Notes under the pieces: generated by a model
What the model was told of the DNA's origin: nothing
The model's database searches: none
What the model saw: the letters and a program-made list of their open reading frames with translations, nothing else
Translations under genes and position numbers: made by a program
Shown here: positions 3,842 through 32,803 of the stretch, piece after piece
How the letters are laid out: each line of letters starts with the position of its first letter
Numbering within the stretch: position 1 is the stretch's first letter
DNA from: Elusimicrobiales bacterium
Lineage (GTDB): Bacteria; Elusimicrobiota; Elusimicrobia; Elusimicrobiales; UBA9959
Length of the DNA: 34,306 bases
Assembly: GCA_031082205.1 (NCBI GenBank)
Contig: JAVHLJ010000026.1
Coordinates: 1 to 34,306, forward strand
Reading direction: 5' to 3'

Positions 3842-5164
3842 TTACGGCTGGTTCATCCAGGTGACGAACTCGTCCCAGCGCGAATCCCTGGCCCAGGCCA
3901 GCTCGCTGTAGCCGTTGGCGAGGCCCGAGTAGGGGAAGTACGCCGCCATGCCCTTGGAGAGCGTGTACTGCTTGGGGCCGCTCCAGAAGCTGCCCTGGCT
4001 GTCGCGGGTGCGGTTGTGCAGCATCAGCGAGCCGGTGATATAGTCCATGAGCGCCTGGCCGGCGGCCCTGACCTGCTCGTTCTGGGAGCCCTCGACCACG
4101 CGGCGGGCGAAGTCGTACATGTCGCGGTTCTCGCCTATCGCGTAGTTGATGGCCGCGTTGCGGGCGGTCTTGGCCAGCGCTTTCTCGCCCGAGGCCATCA
4201 TCGCGTCGGCGAAGGCGTTGCTGACGGTCAGCAGGCCGCCCACGGCCGAGGCGCGCGCCAGGCTCTGGGTGTAGCCCTGATTTATCTTATCGTAGTGGTT
4301 GGCGTAGGCGTCCACGGTCAGCCTGCCCACTTCCTGCGGGGTCATCGCGGGCCGGGCGGCTATCGGGCCCAGGAAGTCGTTGTAGGTGTAGCCGTCGCCG
4401 GGCTCGGTCTCCTCGGAACCCACGATGAAGTCCGCGTAGTCCTTGATCTCGTAGACCACCTCGGCCATCTGCATCAGGCAGGCGTCGGTGCTGAACACGT
4501 CGACCTTGCCTATTTCGCGCAGCGCCATGGCCAGTTCGGGGGTGGTGATGTGGTTGCCGCTCTCCTCGTCATAGGAGATGCCCTTGTTCTCGTCGGCCTT
4601 GTTCTTGAGCCAGCCGTCCCCGTGGTTGGAGACTATCAGCATGTACTTCTTGGCCGGGAAATTCTCCTTGGCCCATTTGCCGAAGGCGGCCAGGTTGCGG
4701 TAGTCGCCCTGGTCGATCATGCCGAGGTCCTGTATCATCCTGGACCCCATCCTGGTCATGTCGGAATCTTTCTGTATCAGGTAGCGGCGGACGCCGGTCC
4801 AGTCGCCGTCCGAGGCGTCGTGGCCCTGCATGCGGCCCACTTCGACCACGATGTTGAGCTTGTCGGTGGAGCCGACCAGCTCCATCTCGTTTATGTCGCG
4901 CAGGAGGAAGCGCTCCAGGTCGTTCTTGGCGCTGGAGAAGACCATGATGGTCCACTCGGCCTTCTCTTTCTTGCCGAAGAGCCAGTCGAATATACCCTTG
5001 TCCTGGTCCTGGGCGGCTATCGCCTCGGCGGGCACGGAGAGCTCGACCTGCGAGATCCTCTCCATTATGTCCCCGCCGCGGGAAGAGCCGTCGAAATCGA
5101 CGGACCAGCCCTGCACCGGCATTAGAAGGGCCGCTATGGCTGTCATCGTAAGCTTGCGTATCAT
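3842..5164 (-). CDS. Secreted clostripain-family (C11) cysteine peptidase, copy 1
   Basis: This 440-residue protein has a signal peptide (MIRKLTMTAIAALLMPVQGWS). The peptidase C11 fold follows: WTIMVFSSAKNDLE near 71-84, catalytic H181 in SNHGDGW and catalytic C229 in STDACLMQM, matching the His/Cys dyad of clostripain. The family cleaves after basic residues, usually Arg, and is often exported. An open frame extends 43 codons further upstream, but the ATG at 5164 is chosen because it begins the signal peptide and has AGGAGG (5170-5175) five bases before it. A paralogue with the same layout lies at 24219-25628. No internal self-processing site was identified. Target proteins are unknown. Confidence 0.9.
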   Translation of the reverse strand: MIRKLTMTAIAALLMPVQGWSVDFDGSSRGGDIMERISQVELSVPAEAIAAQDQDKGIFDWLFGKKEKAEWTIMVFSSAKNDLERFLLRDINEMELVGSTDKLNIVVEVGRMQGHDASDGDWTGVRRYLIQKDSDMTRMGSRMIQDLGMIDQGDYRNLAAFGKWAKENFPAKKYMLIVSNHGDGWLKNKADENKGISYDEESGNHITTPELAMALREIGKVDVFSTDACLMQMAEVVYEIKDYADFIVGSEETEPGDGYTYNDFLGPIAARPAMTPQEVGRLTVDAYANHYDKINQGYTQSLARASAVGGLLTVSNAFADAMMASGEKALAKTARNAAINYAIGENRDMYDFARRVVEGSQNEQVRAAGQALMDYITGSLMLHNRTRDSQGSFWSGPKQYTLSKGMAAYFPYSGLANGYSELAWARDSRWDEFVTWMNQP

Positions 5165-5207
5165 GGCTGCCTCCTGACCTGCTTGACCTGCATCAACTTC
5201 CATCAAT

Positions 5208-5235
5208 AGTCTAGCCTCCCGCGGTTCCGGGTCAA
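5208..5235 (-). promoter_or_regulatory. Promoter of C11 peptidase copy 1
   Basis: On the minus strand TTGACC (5235-5230) and TAGACT (5213-5208) are 16 bases apart, putting the start site near 5201 and giving a leader of about 37 bases that contains the AGGAGG. Confidence 0.5.
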
Positions 5236-5256
5236 AGGGTCCGGGGACCCCCAGTT

Positions 5257-5278
5257 TTATGGGCCTAAGGGCCCATAA
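5257..5278. repeat. GGGCC-TAAG-GGCCC palindrome upstream of C11 peptidase copy 1
   Basis: Perfect 9-bp arms TTATGGGCC (5257-5265) and GGCCCATAA (5270-5278) surround TAAG. The palindrome lies about 57-77 bases upstream of the predicted start site of the C11 gene and is also upstream of the divergent SWIB gene. Similar GGGCC/GGCCC palindromes with TTAA-type centres occur at 24120-24136 and 34206-34219. Confidence 0.55.
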
Positions 5279-5324
5279 TCCCGCCCCGCTCATTGACCCG
5301 GCGCAAGGCGCGCGGCGGCCGTTT

Positions 5325-6132: not shown

Positions 6133-8895
<2,763 letters not shown>

Positions 8896-8950
8896 TATAG
8901 GGTCTCCCGGAGGCGCGGCCGCGGGGCCGCGGTACTTTTCCAGATATATC

Positions 8951-8980
8951 ATTATCTTATAAAACAGCGGCGACCGTCAA
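8951..8980 (-). promoter_or_regulatory. Promoter of the M16 peptidase gene
   Basis: On the minus strand TTGACG (8980-8975) and GATAAT (8956-8951) are separated by 18 bases. The start site would be near 8944, leaving a leader of about 50 bases with the GGGAGA SD. Confidence 0.55.
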
Positions 8981-24218: not shown

Positions 24219-25628
24219 ATGAACCTCAAAGCCCTTTCCCTTATACCCGCCGCCCTTCTCATGTGCGGCTCTTTCGGTCTCAACGCTCAGGAGTTCGACC
24301 TGGACTCCCTCACCCTCTCCGGGGTCCCGGCCATAGAAGTGCCCGCGGCCCTGGAGGACGCCTCCCGCGCCAAGCCGGGCCCGCTCGCCCAGAAAGAGTG
24401 GACCGTCCTGGTCTTCATGAACGCCAAGAACGACCTCAGCGAGAGCAGCCTGCTGGGCCTGGTCGGCAAGTGGGCCGAGCGCGACATCAAGGAGATGAAG
24501 CAGGTCGGCACCACCGACAAGGTCAACATAGTGGTCGAGCACGGCAAGGCGGGCGAGGGCTCGCGCCGGCTGCTCATCAACAAGAAGGGCGGCATCTTCT
24601 CCAGCGGCGAGACCAAATACTCCGAGGACAAGAACGCCGACATGGGCGACTACCGCCGCGTCATAGACTTCGTGAAATGGGGCAAGCAGACCTTCCCCGC
24701 CAGGAAATACATGCTGGTGCTCTGGAACCACGGCCTCGGCTGGATAGACCCCAACCTGCAGCAGCACGCCGCCGGCACCGGGACCAATAACAAGGGCATA
24801 CTCTTCGACGACGACACCAAGAACTACGTCCGCACCCACCAGCTGGGCGAGATCCTGCGCCAGGCCGGCTACGTGGACATACTGATGCAGAACGCCTGCC
24901 TCCAGCAGATGGCCGAAGTTCTCTACGAGATGAAGGACGGCGCGGGCCTCTTCGTCGGCTCCGAGGAGACCATGCTGGCCCAGGGCTTCGACTACGAGAA
25001 GCTGCTCAACTTCATGAACGCCGACGTCAACTTCACCAACGAAAAGTTCAGCGACTTCCTGATGCAGTGGTACCGCGACTTCTACGCCGGCGGCATGAGC
25101 GTAGGCCCGCTGACGATGCCGCTGGATTCCATACCGGCCCAGCTCTCCACCGTCCGCCCCGGCCCGCTCTCCGAGCTGCCGGCGCGGCTCGACGCCTTCA
25201 CGGCGGCGGTGATGGCCAATAACGAGACCGAGGCCGTCCGCAAGGCCGTGGCCGACGTCGTCCGCTTCACCAGCATCGACCCCTCGGACAAGAAGAAGCT
25301 GCTGGCCTACTACGCCGACCTCTACGACTTCGCCGGCATAGTCGGCCGCAACGCCCGCTCCGCGGAGGCCCGCCGGGCCGCCGAGAGCCTGCAGGGCTTC
25401 ATCAAGAACAGCCTGGTCATGCGCAATGTCGGCATCAACGCCGACGCCGAGAACGGCTACGCCTACTCGCGGACCGGCGGCATCGCCATCAACATGACGC
25501 TCAAGGCGAAGAACGTCCCGCCGCAGCTGGCGGACATCCACGAGACGGACTACTCCACCCTGTCGCTGTCGCGCGACTCGCAGTGGGACGAGTTCCTCTC
25601 CTGGGCCGACTCGGTCTGGCGCAACTGA
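24219..25628 (+). CDS. Secreted clostripain-family (C11) cysteine peptidase, copy 2
   Basis: This 469-residue protein has a signal peptide (MNLKALSLIPAALLMCGSFGLNAQ). The C11 domain begins at KEWTVLVFMNAKNDLSE (about 59-75). Catalytic H171 lies in LWNHGLGW and catalytic C227 in MQNACLQQM. Copy 1 has Asp before the Ala-Cys (TDAC), whereas this copy has Asn (QNAC), so the S1 or oxyanion surroundings differ slightly. The C-terminal end LSRDSQWDEFLSWADSVWRN parallels the end of copy 1. The gene is monocistronic, with its own TATACT, a strong AGGAGG and a strong terminator. It probably acts outside the cell or in the periplasm. Substrates are unknown. Confidence 0.92.
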   Translation: MNLKALSLIPAALLMCGSFGLNAQEFDLDSLTLSGVPAIEVPAALEDASRAKPGPLAQKEWTVLVFMNAKNDLSESSLLGLVGKWAERDIKEMKQVGTTDKVNIVVEHGKAGEGSRRLLINKKGGIFSSGETKYSEDKNADMGDYRRVIDFVKWGKQTFPARKYMLVLWNHGLGWIDPNLQQHAAGTGTNNKGILFDDDTKNYVRTHQLGEILRQAGYVDILMQNACLQQMAEVLYEMKDGAGLFVGSEETMLAQGFDYEKLLNFMNADVNFTNEKFSDFLMQWYRDFYAGGMSVGPLTMPLDSIPAQLSTVRPGPLSELPARLDAFTAAVMANNETEAVRKAVADVVRFTSIDPSDKKKLLAYYADLYDFAGIVGRNARSAEARRAAESLQGFIKNSLVMRNVGINADAENGYAYSRTGGIAINMTLKAKNVPPQLADIHETDYSTLSLSRDSQWDEFLSWADSVWRN

Positions 25629-28990: not shown

Positions 28991-29203
28991 TCAGACCGGG
29001 GTGGGCGGCGGGACCGGCGGGCAGTCGGAAGGGCAGTGCACGTACTTGGGGCAGACCACCCAGTTCTCCGCGCAATCGCCCTTTTCGGCCATCTCACCGA
29101 AGATCATGAAGGCCTGGAACTCCAGCCTGTCCCCGGCCTTCTCCAGCGTAAGAACGTCTTCGGAGCCGAGATTTATGGATTTGATGAAAGACTTCGTTTT
29201 CAT
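28991..29203 (-). CDS. Cys/Pro-rich 70-residue small protein, sigma-54 controlled
   Basis: This 70-residue product begins MKTKSFIKSINLGSEDVLTL and ends CPSDCPPVPPPTPV. The first 40 residues are ordinary and mildly acidic. The last 27 hold all four cysteines (44, 51, 57, 61) and seven of the eight prolines in a CP-x4-CP-x2-CPP pattern. There is no signal peptide or membrane helix. The ATG at 29203 is chosen over upstream codons because AGGAG (29214-29210) is six bases before it. The overall look (leader-like front, Cys-rich end) resembles a ribosomal peptide precursor or a metal/disulfide-binding peptide, but no modifying enzyme is adjacent, so no function is assigned. A sigma-54-type promoter precedes it. 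Confidence 0.75.
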   Translation of the reverse strand: MKTKSFIKSINLGSEDVLTLEKAGDRLEFQAFMIFGEMAEKGDCAENWVVCPKYVHCPSDCPPVPPPTPV

Positions 29204-29295: not shown

Positions 29296-29311
29296 AGCAA
29301 TTTTTATGCCC
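29296..29311 (-). promoter_or_regulatory. Sigma-54 (-24/-12) promoter of the small Cys/Pro protein gene
   Basis: On the minus strand GGGCAT, AAAAA, TTGCT matches the sigma-54 consensus TGGCAC-N5-TTGCW except for the first and sixth bases. The -24 GG and -12 GC are ten bases apart. The start site would be near 29285, giving a leader of about 80 bases. Confidence 0.8.
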
Positions 29312-29350
29312 ATAATTCCGCTGTTTTAAAGATTTTTCCGCCAAATAAGC

Positions 29351-29371
29351 GCAAAAAATCAATTTTTTTGC
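29351..29371. promoter_or_regulatory. Inverted repeat, possible activator site for the sigma-54 promoter
   Basis: GCAAAAAA (29351-29358) and TTTTTTGC (29364-29371) surround a 5-base centre. It lies about 65-85 bases upstream of the predicted start site of the small-protein gene, where bacterial enhancer-binding proteins commonly bind. The neighbouring stretch to 29390 is AT-rich and carries CATAT/ATATG arms. Confidence 0.4.
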
Positions 29372-29391
29372 ATATTTTAATTTTCATATGA

Positions 29392-29425
29392 AAAACAGGC
29401 CCCGGATCTGACCGGAGCCTGTTTT
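29392..29425 (-). terminator. Terminator of the secreted 313-residue protein gene
   Basis: AAAACAGGC plus CCGG (29392-29405, one mismatch at 29401) pairs with CCGG plus GCCTGTTTT (29412-29425) around a 6-base loop. On the minus strand it ends in a run of five T (29395-29391) and lies just after the stop of the gene at 29439. Confidence 0.78.
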
Positions 29426-29438
29426 CGCGCGGCCGCAA

Positions 29439-30380
29439 CTACTTTATCACGCTGACCGTGCCGCTCTTACCCTTCTCTATGTAATCCTCGGTGAAGCCGG
29501 CTTTCTTGACCTTGAAACCCCATTTCACGTAGTACTTGTCGGCCTTGGCCCTGAATTCGGCCTCGTCTTTCCCGGAGGCGAAGTCGGCGAGCTTGAAGGT
29601 CATCTTGAAATCCTGCCGCAGCCAGTTGAGCGGGAACTCGAAGAACCTGGTGCCTTTTGAGGAATCGAACATCTTGTCCTGCACCAGCTCGACGCCTATG
29701 TGGACCTTGCCAAGGTCATAGTCGCCGGTGAACTGGTTCCGGACCGTCATGGTGAACTCCTCGCGCACGTCGTCGTAGGAGAACTGCGCCAGATCCGCGA
29801 GAGAAGCCTCGGGCTTCTGCGGCTTCCGCTGCCCGGGGAAAAGTTCTATGGAATACTGCCAGCCGCCGTTCTTATCCCGGTAGGTGTATTCGAAAGGCGT
29901 CTGCCGCAGGACGAAAGACCCTTTCTGCGACTGGAAGTCGAAGCACACCTCTATTCTCTCCTTATCGAATTGCCTGAGTTCGCGCTTGTGTATCACGAGG
30001 TCGATGTCCGCGGTGTACCACTGCGTTCTGTTCTCGCATTCCGACCAGGTCACGTACTGGCCGTTCACCATGCCGCTGACGTCGCGGCATTCCTGCCACA
30101 TGAAAGCCCCTTCGACCGGGGTCCTGCGGTTGATGGCCGCCCCGTCGCGGGAATCCAGCTCGACGGTCTTGCAGACTTTACGCTGGTGCCAACCCCTGTC
30201 GGAGATCTTGTAAACGGGTTTGGCCGCGGGTTCCCCGGCCACGACCTCCGCGTCCCCGATAAGTTCGTCCAGCCGGCCGGCCCCGATAGCCGCTTTGCCG
30301 TCGAAGTCCACTTTAATTTCTTCCGCGCCGGCATAAGAGGCCGCCGCCAGAAGCATAAAAAATATTTTGAGATATTTCAT
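29439..30380 (-). CDS. Secreted protein of unknown function, sigma-54 controlled
   Basis: This 313-residue protein has a signal peptide (MKYLKIFFMLLAAASYAGA). The mature part (about 20-313) is rich in aromatic and charged residues and looks beta-rich, for example QYVTWSECENRTQWYTADIDLV near 109-130. Cysteines near 70, 98, 117 and 144 could pair in the periplasm. I recognise no domain. The ATG at 30380 is chosen over an upstream codon because it starts the signal peptide and has GGGGGAG a few bases before it. A near-perfect sigma-54 promoter lies at 30442-30427. The histidine kinase gene is divergent, and the sigma-54-driven small-protein gene lies downstream on the same strand. Confidence 0.8.
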   Translation of the reverse strand: MKYLKIFFMLLAAASYAGAEEIKVDFDGKAAIGAGRLDELIGDAEVVAGEPAAKPVYKISDRGWHQRKVCKTVELDSRDGAAINRRTPVEGAFMWQECRDVSGMVNGQYVTWSECENRTQWYTADIDLVIHKRELRQFDKERIEVCFDFQSQKGSFVLRQTPFEYTYRDKNGGWQYSIELFPGQRKPQKPEASLADLAQFSYDDVREEFTMTVRNQFTGDYDLGKVHIGVELVQDKMFDSSKGTRFFEFPLNWLRQDFKMTFKLADFASGKDEAEFRAKADKYYVKWGFKVKKAGFTEDYIEKGKSGTVSVIK

Positions 30381-30426
30381 CGTTTCTCCCCCGTGCCCGT
30401 ATTGTTTTGACCGTCGCAAAACATGG

Positions 30427-30442
30427 AGCAATTTTTATGCCA
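30427..30442 (-). promoter_or_regulatory. Sigma-54 (-24/-12) promoter of the secreted protein gene
   Basis: On the minus strand TGGCAT, AAAAA, TTGCT matches the consensus TGGCAC-N5-TTGCW at all but one base. Eleven of the bases from the -20 side through the -12 box (CATAAAAATTGCT) are shared with the other sigma-54 promoter at 29311-29296. The start site would be near 30416, giving a leader of about 36 bases. Confidence 0.85.
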
Positions 30443-30523: not shown

Positions 30524-32803
30524 ATGGGAGATACGGCGGGGCTGGTCCTTGTAGTGACCATGGGCAAGGAGCTTCCTGAGGAGCTCAGACCTTCCATGTC
30601 CGGCCGCGGGCTGGATATCGCCATAGTTCCCACCCTCAACTACGCCGCCGACCGCCTGGCCAAGGGCGACTGCATGGCCATAGTGGTAGATTACGCCAAA
30701 GTCTCGCTGGAGGAACGCGAAGCTTTCCTGGCGCTGCATAAGCAGTATCCGAAGGTCCACTTTTTCTCGCTGGAAACGATGGCCAGCAATTCCCCGGAGC
30801 ACCTGGCCCCCCTGCGCAGGCTGGGCTGGCCCATGCCCAACGGCTTCGCCGACCAGATGCGCGCCATAGACCGCCAGATAGTGCTGCTGGCCGAGCAGGT
30901 GCTGTTCGTCACCGGCGCGGTCCAGACCGCGCTGCAGAGCGCCGGCGTCAAGCCGGTCTCGCTGGAATCCACCAACGACCTGGCGGCATTCATCGCGAAG
31001 CAGAACGAAGCGCGCATAGCGTCATCCCAGCGCAAGAAGCCAAAGAGCCTCTGGTCAAAGCTCAGCGGCGGCGAAGAGGAGAACCCGGCGGGGGCGCAGT
31101 TCCTGGGCAACGTGGTGGTGGCCCAGTTCAGCGGCAGGCAGGAGGACGCCGAGGCGCTGGACGCCGAGATACGCCAGGCGGCTCCCGAGGCGGTATGCTA
31201 CCTGGTCTCCGGCACGGACACGGTGCGCTACGCCCTGCAGTTCCTCCGCGAGGGCCGGCCCGTCTCGCTGATGCGGGAGCACGCCGGGCGCGTAGCCGGG
31301 ATACTGGCCGAGCTGGCCGGCGGCGGCGCCGAAACGCGCCTCAAGGAGCGCGAGAAGGAACGCATACTTCTCCTGGACAATTTCAAGCCGGCGCTCACCA
31401 TGCTGGGACAGGCCCTGCTCGGCGCGGGCTACGAGGTGACGGCTTCGATGGACGGCGGCGAAGCCCTGGGCCTCTGCAAGAAGGGCAGCTTCCACCTCGC
31501 CGTGATAGGGACCGCCATAAGTTTCGCGGAGCATTCCGGCGCCGAGCTGGCGCAGAAACTGCGCGAGCGCGATCCTGACATGCGCATCATCTTCATGGTC
31601 GACCAGTACCCGCTTAAAGCCGCCCTGCAGGGCGTCAGCCAGGTGGTGGAGCTGGGCCTGGACGACGCGCTCCTTAAGCCCGTGGAGCCCTCGCGCCTCA
31701 TCTTCTCCGTGCAGAAGGCCCTGGAGGCCCGGTTCCTCAAGCTCGAGAACGCCCGCCTGCTCAAGGAGACGCAGGCGCAGAAAGAGCAGCTCGAGCTGAT
31801 AAACGGCTTCCAGAAGAAGTTCTTCGCCACCGTGGCCCACGACGTGAAAAGCCCTCTCACGGCCATCATGGGCTATTCGGAAGTCCTGACCGGCAAGCTC
31901 AAGAGCATGCCGAGCGAGCAGAAATACGCCGCCAATATCCAGACCTCGGCCAAGACGCTCAACGTCCTCATCTCCGACCTCGTAGACCTGGCCGCCATCG
32001 AATCCGGAAAGCTGCGCGTGGAAATAGGCGCGCTGAACCTGCTGGCCGTGATCAACGACGTTTACGCCCGCGTCGAGATAGCCGCCCAGAAGCGCCAGCT
32101 GACGCTGATAAAGGACGTTCCGCCCGCCCTGCCGCCTATGGCCGGCGACGACGCCCGGATCGGGCAGGTGGTGCAGAACCTCTGCACCAACGCCATACAG
32201 TACACCAAGGAAGGCGGCAAGATAACCATAAAGGCCGAACTCAAGCCCGACCGCGTCGAAGTGAGCGTGATAGACACCGGCATCGGCATCTCGAAAGAGG
32301 ACCTGCCGCGCGTCTGGGAGCGGTTCTTCCAGACCAAGGAAGCCCAGGGCATGCGCAAGGCCGGCTTCGGTCTCGGCCTGAAGATCGCGCGCGAAATAGT
32401 CCAGCGGCACGGCGGCGAGATGGGCATAGAGTCGGAACTGGGGGTAGGCTCGCGGTTCTTCTTCCACATCCCGGTCAAGGAAGGGGCGGAGCTCCCTCCA
32501 CCCCCGCCGGCCGCGCAGAAGGCTCCGGAGCCGGCGCCGCAGCCAGAGCGGCCCGCTGTCCCGGCGCCCCCCCCGCCTCCCGCTCCGCAGCCGAAGCAGG
32601 AGCCGCCGGCCCCGGCGCCGCCGCCCATCGCCCCGGTCCACATAGTCCCGGCCCCGCTGCCCCTGGAACCGCGGCCGGGCCAGCCTCAGCCGCCGCCCCC
32701 GGACCCCGGTCCCGCTGCGGCCCCTCCCCCGCAGCAGCCGGCTCCCGCGCCGCAGCCCGGCCCCATGCCGACGCCTCCGGTACCGAGGAAAAAGAGATCC
32801 TGA
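30524..32803 (+). CDS. Hybrid-type histidine kinase with degenerate receiver domains and Pro-rich tail
   Basis: This 759-residue cytoplasmic protein has no membrane helix. Residues 1-260 look like one or two receiver-like alpha/beta folds lacking phosphorylation residues (LVLVVTMGK near 7-15, VLFVTGAV near 126-133). Residues 281-400 form another receiver-like domain (ILLLDNF) that keeps D285 and a K385 in LLKP, but the phosphoacceptor position reads LAVIGT without Asp. HisKA follows with H439 in AHDVKSPL, then HATPase_c with the N box QNLCTNAIQYT, DTGIGIS and GFGLGLKIA, all intact. Residues 658-759 are a proline-rich tail with many PPP runs, likely disordered. It therefore appears able to autophosphorylate but not to use its own receivers. 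The substrate regulator is not adjacent. Confidence 0.92.
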   Translation: MGDTAGLVLVVTMGKELPEELRPSMSGRGLDIAIVPTLNYAADRLAKGDCMAIVVDYAKVSLEEREAFLALHKQYPKVHFFSLETMASNSPEHLAPLRRLGWPMPNGFADQMRAIDRQIVLLAEQVLFVTGAVQTALQSAGVKPVSLESTNDLAAFIAKQNEARIASSQRKKPKSLWSKLSGGEEENPAGAQFLGNVVVAQFSGRQEDAEALDAEIRQAAPEAVCYLVSGTDTVRYALQFLREGRPVSLMREHAGRVAGILAELAGGGAETRLKEREKERILLLDNFKPALTMLGQALLGAGYEVTASMDGGEALGLCKKGSFHLAVIGTAISFAEHSGAELAQKLRERDPDMRIIFMVDQYPLKAALQGVSQVVELGLDDALLKPVEPSRLIFSVQKALEARFLKLENARLLKETQAQKEQLELINGFQKKFFATVAHDVKSPLTAIMGYSEVLTGKLKSMPSEQKYAANIQTSAKTLNVLISDLVDLAAIESGKLRVEIGALNLLAVINDVYARVEIAAQKRQLTLIKDVPPALPPMAGDDARIGQVVQNLCTNAIQYTKEGGKITIKAELKPDRVEVSVIDTGIGISKEDLPRVWERFFQTKEAQGMRKAGFGLGLKIAREIVQRHGGEMGIESELGVGSRFFFHIPVKEGAELPPPPPAAQKAPEPAPQPERPAVPAPPPPPAPQPKQEPPAPAPPPIAPVHIVPAPLPLEPRPGQPQPPPPDPGPAAAPPPQQPAPAPQPGPMPTPPVPRKKRS

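Follow-up and report, generated by a model that had tools for sequence, protein, structure and literature searches.

Two sigma-54-type promoters lie on the minus strand of a 34,306-nucleotide contig from an Elusimicrobiales bacterium (JAVHLJ010000026.1, analysed over its whole length and hereafter called the window), one ahead of the gene for a small peptide and the other ahead of the gene for a putative secreted protein. It is likely that both belong to a regulon controlled by a sigma-54 paralogue, RpoN2, and an enhancer-binding protein, EBP2, and dedicated to peptides of the RiPP (ribosomally synthesized and post-translationally modified peptide) type and to a secreted protein that accompanies them. 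Genome G000 (2.75 Mb, 98 contigs), in which the window is contig C18, has relatives that are mostly Elusimicrobia metagenome-assembled genomes (MAGs), and all inference is drawn from MAG sequences. The features discussed are collected in Table 1.

Table 1. Features of the window that bear on the proposed regulon (– in the strand column, minus; dot, no strand)
Feature	Position	Strand	Remarks
70-aa RiPP-precursor-like peptide	28991..29203	–	Conserved leader KSFIKSINLGSEDVLTLEKAGDRLEFQAF; variable Cys/Pro-rich tail CPKYVHCPSDCPPVPPPTPV
Very probable sigma-54 promoter of the small peptide (GGGCATAAAAATTGCT, -24/-12)	29296..29311	–	Exact 15-mer; kept with its flank in relative G003:C29
Perfect palindrome TTTTCATATGAAAA, candidate enhancer (putative EBP2 dyad)	29381..29394	.	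83 bp upstream of the peptide promoter
313-aa protein with signal-peptide-like N-terminus	29439..30380	–	No known family; Elusimicrobia subfamily with sigma-54 sites
Very probable sigma-54 promoter of the secreted protein (TGGCATAAAAATTGCT)	30427..30442	–	Exact consensus; site kept in G003

The 15-mer GGCATAAAAATTGCT occurs in the window in two exact minus-strand copies (29296-29310 and 30427-30441) with a common GG-N10-GC spacing, and a third, weaker match with 3 mismatches is found at 29358; dinucleotide-shuffled windows averaged 0.34 matches within 3 mismatches, and none of them contained three. The original prediction, made from the window alone, had described the two 16-base sites as near-identical; the 15-mer, its strand and its spacing bear this out, and the 16th (5') base is G at 29311 and T at 30442. 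Scored against the consensus TGGCAY-N5-TTGCW, the 30442 site reaches 11/11 and the 29311 site 10/11. The peptide promoter is located 108 bp ahead of a likely ATG at 29203, which is preceded by GGAG, and the secreted-protein promoter 62 bp ahead of a likely ATG at 30380.

A scan of the whole genome with the 16-base motif, proposed as a check when the sites were first noticed, yielded 16 matches at up to 3 mismatches versus 6 for the reversed control, and the degenerate consensus gave 8 matches versus 1 for the reversed pattern. Across 46 rpoN-positive genomes of the same family, the latter numbers were 245 and 76 (p about 6e-7). The lack of rpoN, which had been named as grounds for abandoning the prediction, is excluded, since genome G000 carries two copies, rpoN1 on contig C32 and rpoN2 on contig C88. 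The exact sites, the genome-wide excess and the presence of rpoN agree with the original view that these are sigma-54 promoters of a small regulon, and we regard both sites as very probable promoters of this type. That they are chance AT-rich repeats resembling -24/-12 elements is strongly disfavoured and exceedingly improbable: the motif is short, and some of its matches elsewhere are probably fortuitous, but chance fits poorly with the excess over the reversed pattern, with the retention of site and position across species, and with the enrichment of the upstream dyad described below. The match at C88:27037, which lies between convergent genes and antisense to the activator operon, was set aside as a promoter and may be such a fortuitous case, as may some matches on C56.

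Good sites precede rpoN2 (TGGCATTAAAATTGCT), a peptide operon on C88 and the two window genes, as well as a secreted trypsin-like protease (C19) and signal-peptide-like proteins (C14, C77). The function of the regulon, which had been left blank in the original prediction, thereby acquires a context on C88, where a Cys-rich peptide, a short accessory open reading frame, a radical-SAM/SPASM maturase and an M50-type protein are encoded in this order, followed by the convergent gene for EBP2 and by rpoN2, which is divergent from it. EBP2 is an NtrC-type protein with REC and AAA+ domains and a GAFTGA motif, and RpoN2 carries an RpoN-box-like SRRSITQYRK. Two strong sigma-54 activators with GAFTGA were found in the genome, each adjoining one of the rpoN genes; as originally noted, the window itself encodes none. 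Two rpoN copies are common across the class. A conserved protein of about 60 residues, without a convincing family match, is encoded directly 3' of the sigma-54 activator in several genomes (L027, about 8773-8955, plus strand; L116, 1984-2166, minus strand; L129, 1003-1185, minus strand).

The peptide promoters share an upstream element. The palindrome TTTTCATATGAAAA has exactly two copies in the 2.75 Mb genome, against a Markov expectation of 0.003, and both are at -83 of peptide promoters, in the window and on C88. Upstream of rpoN2, the related dyad TTTTCTTTTGAAAA lies at -94, with a 9/10 copy at -114. In the 37 loci compared, 31 of the 58 TTTTC-N4-GAAAA dyads (at least 9/10) fall within the 1.6% of sequence located 20-160 bp upstream of a sigma-54 site, an approximately 71-fold enrichment, the p-value of which is too small because two of the tested sites served to define the motif and the loci share ancestry. 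Where dyads occur as close pairs, 10 of 11 are spaced by 18-21 bp, about two helical turns. A near-copy of the palindrome on C98 was treated as chance, its gene having no sigma-54 site of at least 10/11.

The window peptide is 38% identical to the peptide heading the C88 cluster (E=3e-10, pairwise BLASTP), and these are the only two copies found in the genome. Among 246 relatives, 28 members of this precursor family were collected, which have in common a leader of approximately M-x5-IIKSLNL-x3-EVLTLEKAxDRMEFEALP followed by unrelated, hypervariable Cys-rich or Pro-rich tails. A sigma-54 site of at least 10/11 is present within 450 bp of 20 of the 28 precursors, compared with 2.9% of random positions. 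Synteny with the window locus is preserved in G003, which has retained the peptide, the palindrome, both promoters and the secreted-protein gene. The peptide matches no Pfam or NCBIfam family and has no known product, and in the window its gene is not accompanied by one for a maturase, which would suit a small structural, metal-binding or regulatory peptide with a real promoter and a coincidentally leader-like N-terminus. We consider this improbable in view of the conserved N-terminus and hypervariable C-terminus of the family, the fact that in many genomes its members immediately precede the genes for the radical-SAM/SPASM maturase and the M50 protein, and a similar layout with ICDKICD-type peptides in the cultured relative Lutispora thermophila. 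The arrangement of a radical-SAM RiPP system, in which a precursor with conserved leader and variable core adjoins the modifying enzyme, is found here, and the window peptide is an orphan paralogue that is probably matured in trans.

The maturase is present in largely the same genomes as the precursor family. It matches Pfam Radical_SAM and has the radical-SAM/SPASM constitution of a RiPP enzyme: its core reads CX3CX2C, and its SPASM cysteines follow CX2CX5CX3C; C104, C108, C111, C346, C365, C404, C407, C413, C417 and C433 are invariant among 19 homologues. The M50-type protein of the C88 cluster has local matches to HExxH/M50 proteases and to Pfam Peptidase_M50 (E 2e-7 to 3e-6).

The secreted protein has no Pfam match and, with a 13-row profile, no match in the PDB; an AlphaFold model built from a 2-row alignment was unusable (predicted local distance difference test score, 46). 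Homologues were found in 46 relatives; the close ones make up a subfamily in which the mature protein has an FDG-like motif near its N-terminus. Of the 10 close homologues (L254-L263), 8 have a sigma-54 site about 57-66 bp ahead of the start, as compared with none of the 4 distant paralogues scanned (L264, L266-L268): seven have a strong site (L254-L256, L258-L261), L262 gains one after correction of its start, and no site is present at L257 or L263. The DNA upstream of the gene is poorly conserved between G000 and G003 except for the promoter core. Across the relatives, the precursor family and this subfamily usually appear to have sigma-54 promoters. Elsewhere in the window, two clostripain (C11) peptidases (3842-5293, minus strand; 24219-25628, plus strand) with signal-peptide-like N-termini have an FD motif near the mature N-terminus that resembles the one in the secreted-protein family.

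Several observations weigh against a regulon dedicated to these peptides, in addition to the way in which the dyad was defined. The sigma-54 site is absent from 8 precursors of other genomes. EBP2 and rpoN2 also occur in many relatives that have no maturase, and the module must therefore control more than these peptides. In C88 itself, the precursor frame (L027, 11830-12094) has an in-frame amber TAG at codon 3, or else a later TTG start, and the accessory gene falls far short of its length in the close relative G003, in whose homologous cluster both genes are intact; these features may reflect decay of the cluster in this MAG, sequencing error or use of the later start. Finally, the secreted-protein promoter of G000 has no dyad of at least 9/10 within 500 bp, so that the activator acting there is uncertain, and this is the weakest link. 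The last point would be explained if the sigma-54 promoters, at least the one of the secreted protein, were served instead by RpoN1 and its activator, as C32 encodes a complete set of RpoN1, activator and adjacent PAS histidine kinase. We consider this unlikely, given that rpoN2 and the C88 peptide operon, which are linked to EBP2, have the same type of promoter and the dyad, and that the dyad is present at several close homologues of the secreted-protein gene.

The divergent histidine kinase at 30524-32803, suggested initially as a sensor by its position, was rejected on similarity: its kinase core shows just 25-34% identity with a distinct kinase family (L115, L116, L122, L113), whose genes lie next to those of precursors or of the activator in G001, G003 and G033 and whose members are 46-80% identical to one another. 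This family is the best candidate for the sensor.

On the basis of these data, a mechanism can be proposed. Both window promoters would be served by RNA polymerase containing an RpoN paralogue, most likely the RpoN2 of C88, and phosphorylated EBP2 would bind TTTTC-N4-GAAAA about 60-140 bp upstream and open the promoter. The regulon would comprise (i) the C88 RiPP-type precursors with their radical-SAM/SPASM maturase and M50-type protease, (ii) the orphan precursor of the window, on which the C88 maturase would probably act in trans, (iii) the gene for RpoN2, (iv) the secreted protein and, probably, (v) another radical-SAM peptide operon, located on contig C1. The small peptides are probably cross-linked by the radical-SAM enzyme. 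The C1 operon (L033, 8117-11487) is preceded by a good sigma-54-like site with an enhancer-like dyad at -55, and encodes, in this order, a Tat (twin-arginine translocation)-type peptide of 104 aa, a first radical-SAM protein, a product of 278 aa and a radical-SAM/SPASM protein that is DynA-like; it is probably a second, different RiPP-like member of the regulon. A broader proposal, which we advance only tentatively, is that a sigma-54 paralogue with its own activator acts as a switch for several unrelated radical-SAM peptide systems at scattered places in one genome (C88, the window orphan and C1) by means of a single TTTTC-N4-GAAAA enhancer code kept across genera of an uncultured lineage.

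If this scheme is correct, an almost uncultured phylum gains a concrete and testable circuit from signalling to peptide, with a named sigma factor, activator, candidate kinase family, enhancer code, precursors, maturase and protease. The combined enhancer and promoter signature would also offer a handle on orphan RiPP precursors that are missed by cluster-based mining, the window peptide being an example.

Comparison with known systems places the maturase broadly among the radical-SAM/SPASM enzymes of RiPP pathways, with scores that fall far short of the cut-offs of all the peptide-maturase families listed. For two Elusimicrobia copies, the best NCBIfam profiles are those of Cys-every-fifth (CefB), PapB ranthipeptide, TIGR04463 and geopeptide maturases, which align over most of the length (E 3e-29 to 4e-36) at 102-125 bits compared with curated cut-offs of 340-600, indicating that the enzyme is a member of none of them; with CefB (NF038107, cut-off 600), the C88 maturase scores 102 bits and that of a relative 125, and with the geopeptide maturase (TIGR04280, cut-off 400) the score is 117. 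The M50-type protein of C88 matches the HExxH/M50 proteases of daptide and epipeptide (YydH/LiaK) systems at about 30 bits, relative to cut-offs of 225-300, and the companion genes of those systems are unlike those of the C88 cluster. Closer in layout is the cluster of L. thermophila DSM 19022 (L189, 5420-11534), with a related maturase (35% identical), an M50-type protein and ICDKICD-repeat peptides; as a cultured bacterium, it is a possible experimental model.

EBP2 resembles the PEP-CTERM response regulator PrsR in being of the NtrC type, and scores 228 bits with its model (TIGR02915), below the cut-off of 502.6. The two systems are loosely parallel in that exported products form an RpoN-linked regulon, although no exosortase or PEP-CTERM gene was seen here. 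Our literature searches turned up no report of a RiPP, or of natural-product genes in Elusimicrobiota, under sigma-54 control, and none describing Elusimicrobia RiPPs of a similar type; within the phylum, sigma-54 is absent from Elusimicrobium minutum (PMC3162934). Precedent for sigma-54 control of natural-product genes exists in Myxococcus xanthus, in which sigma-54 promoters with binding sites for the enhancer-binding protein Nla28 are reported to drive biosynthetic genes of polyketide and non-ribosomal clusters and are mostly situated inside genes (PMC7910581). The Elusimicrobia system differs in that its products appear to be ribosomal peptides, its promoters are intergenic, an rpoN paralogue and an activator are encoded beside the peptide cluster, and the upstream element is a defined dyad.
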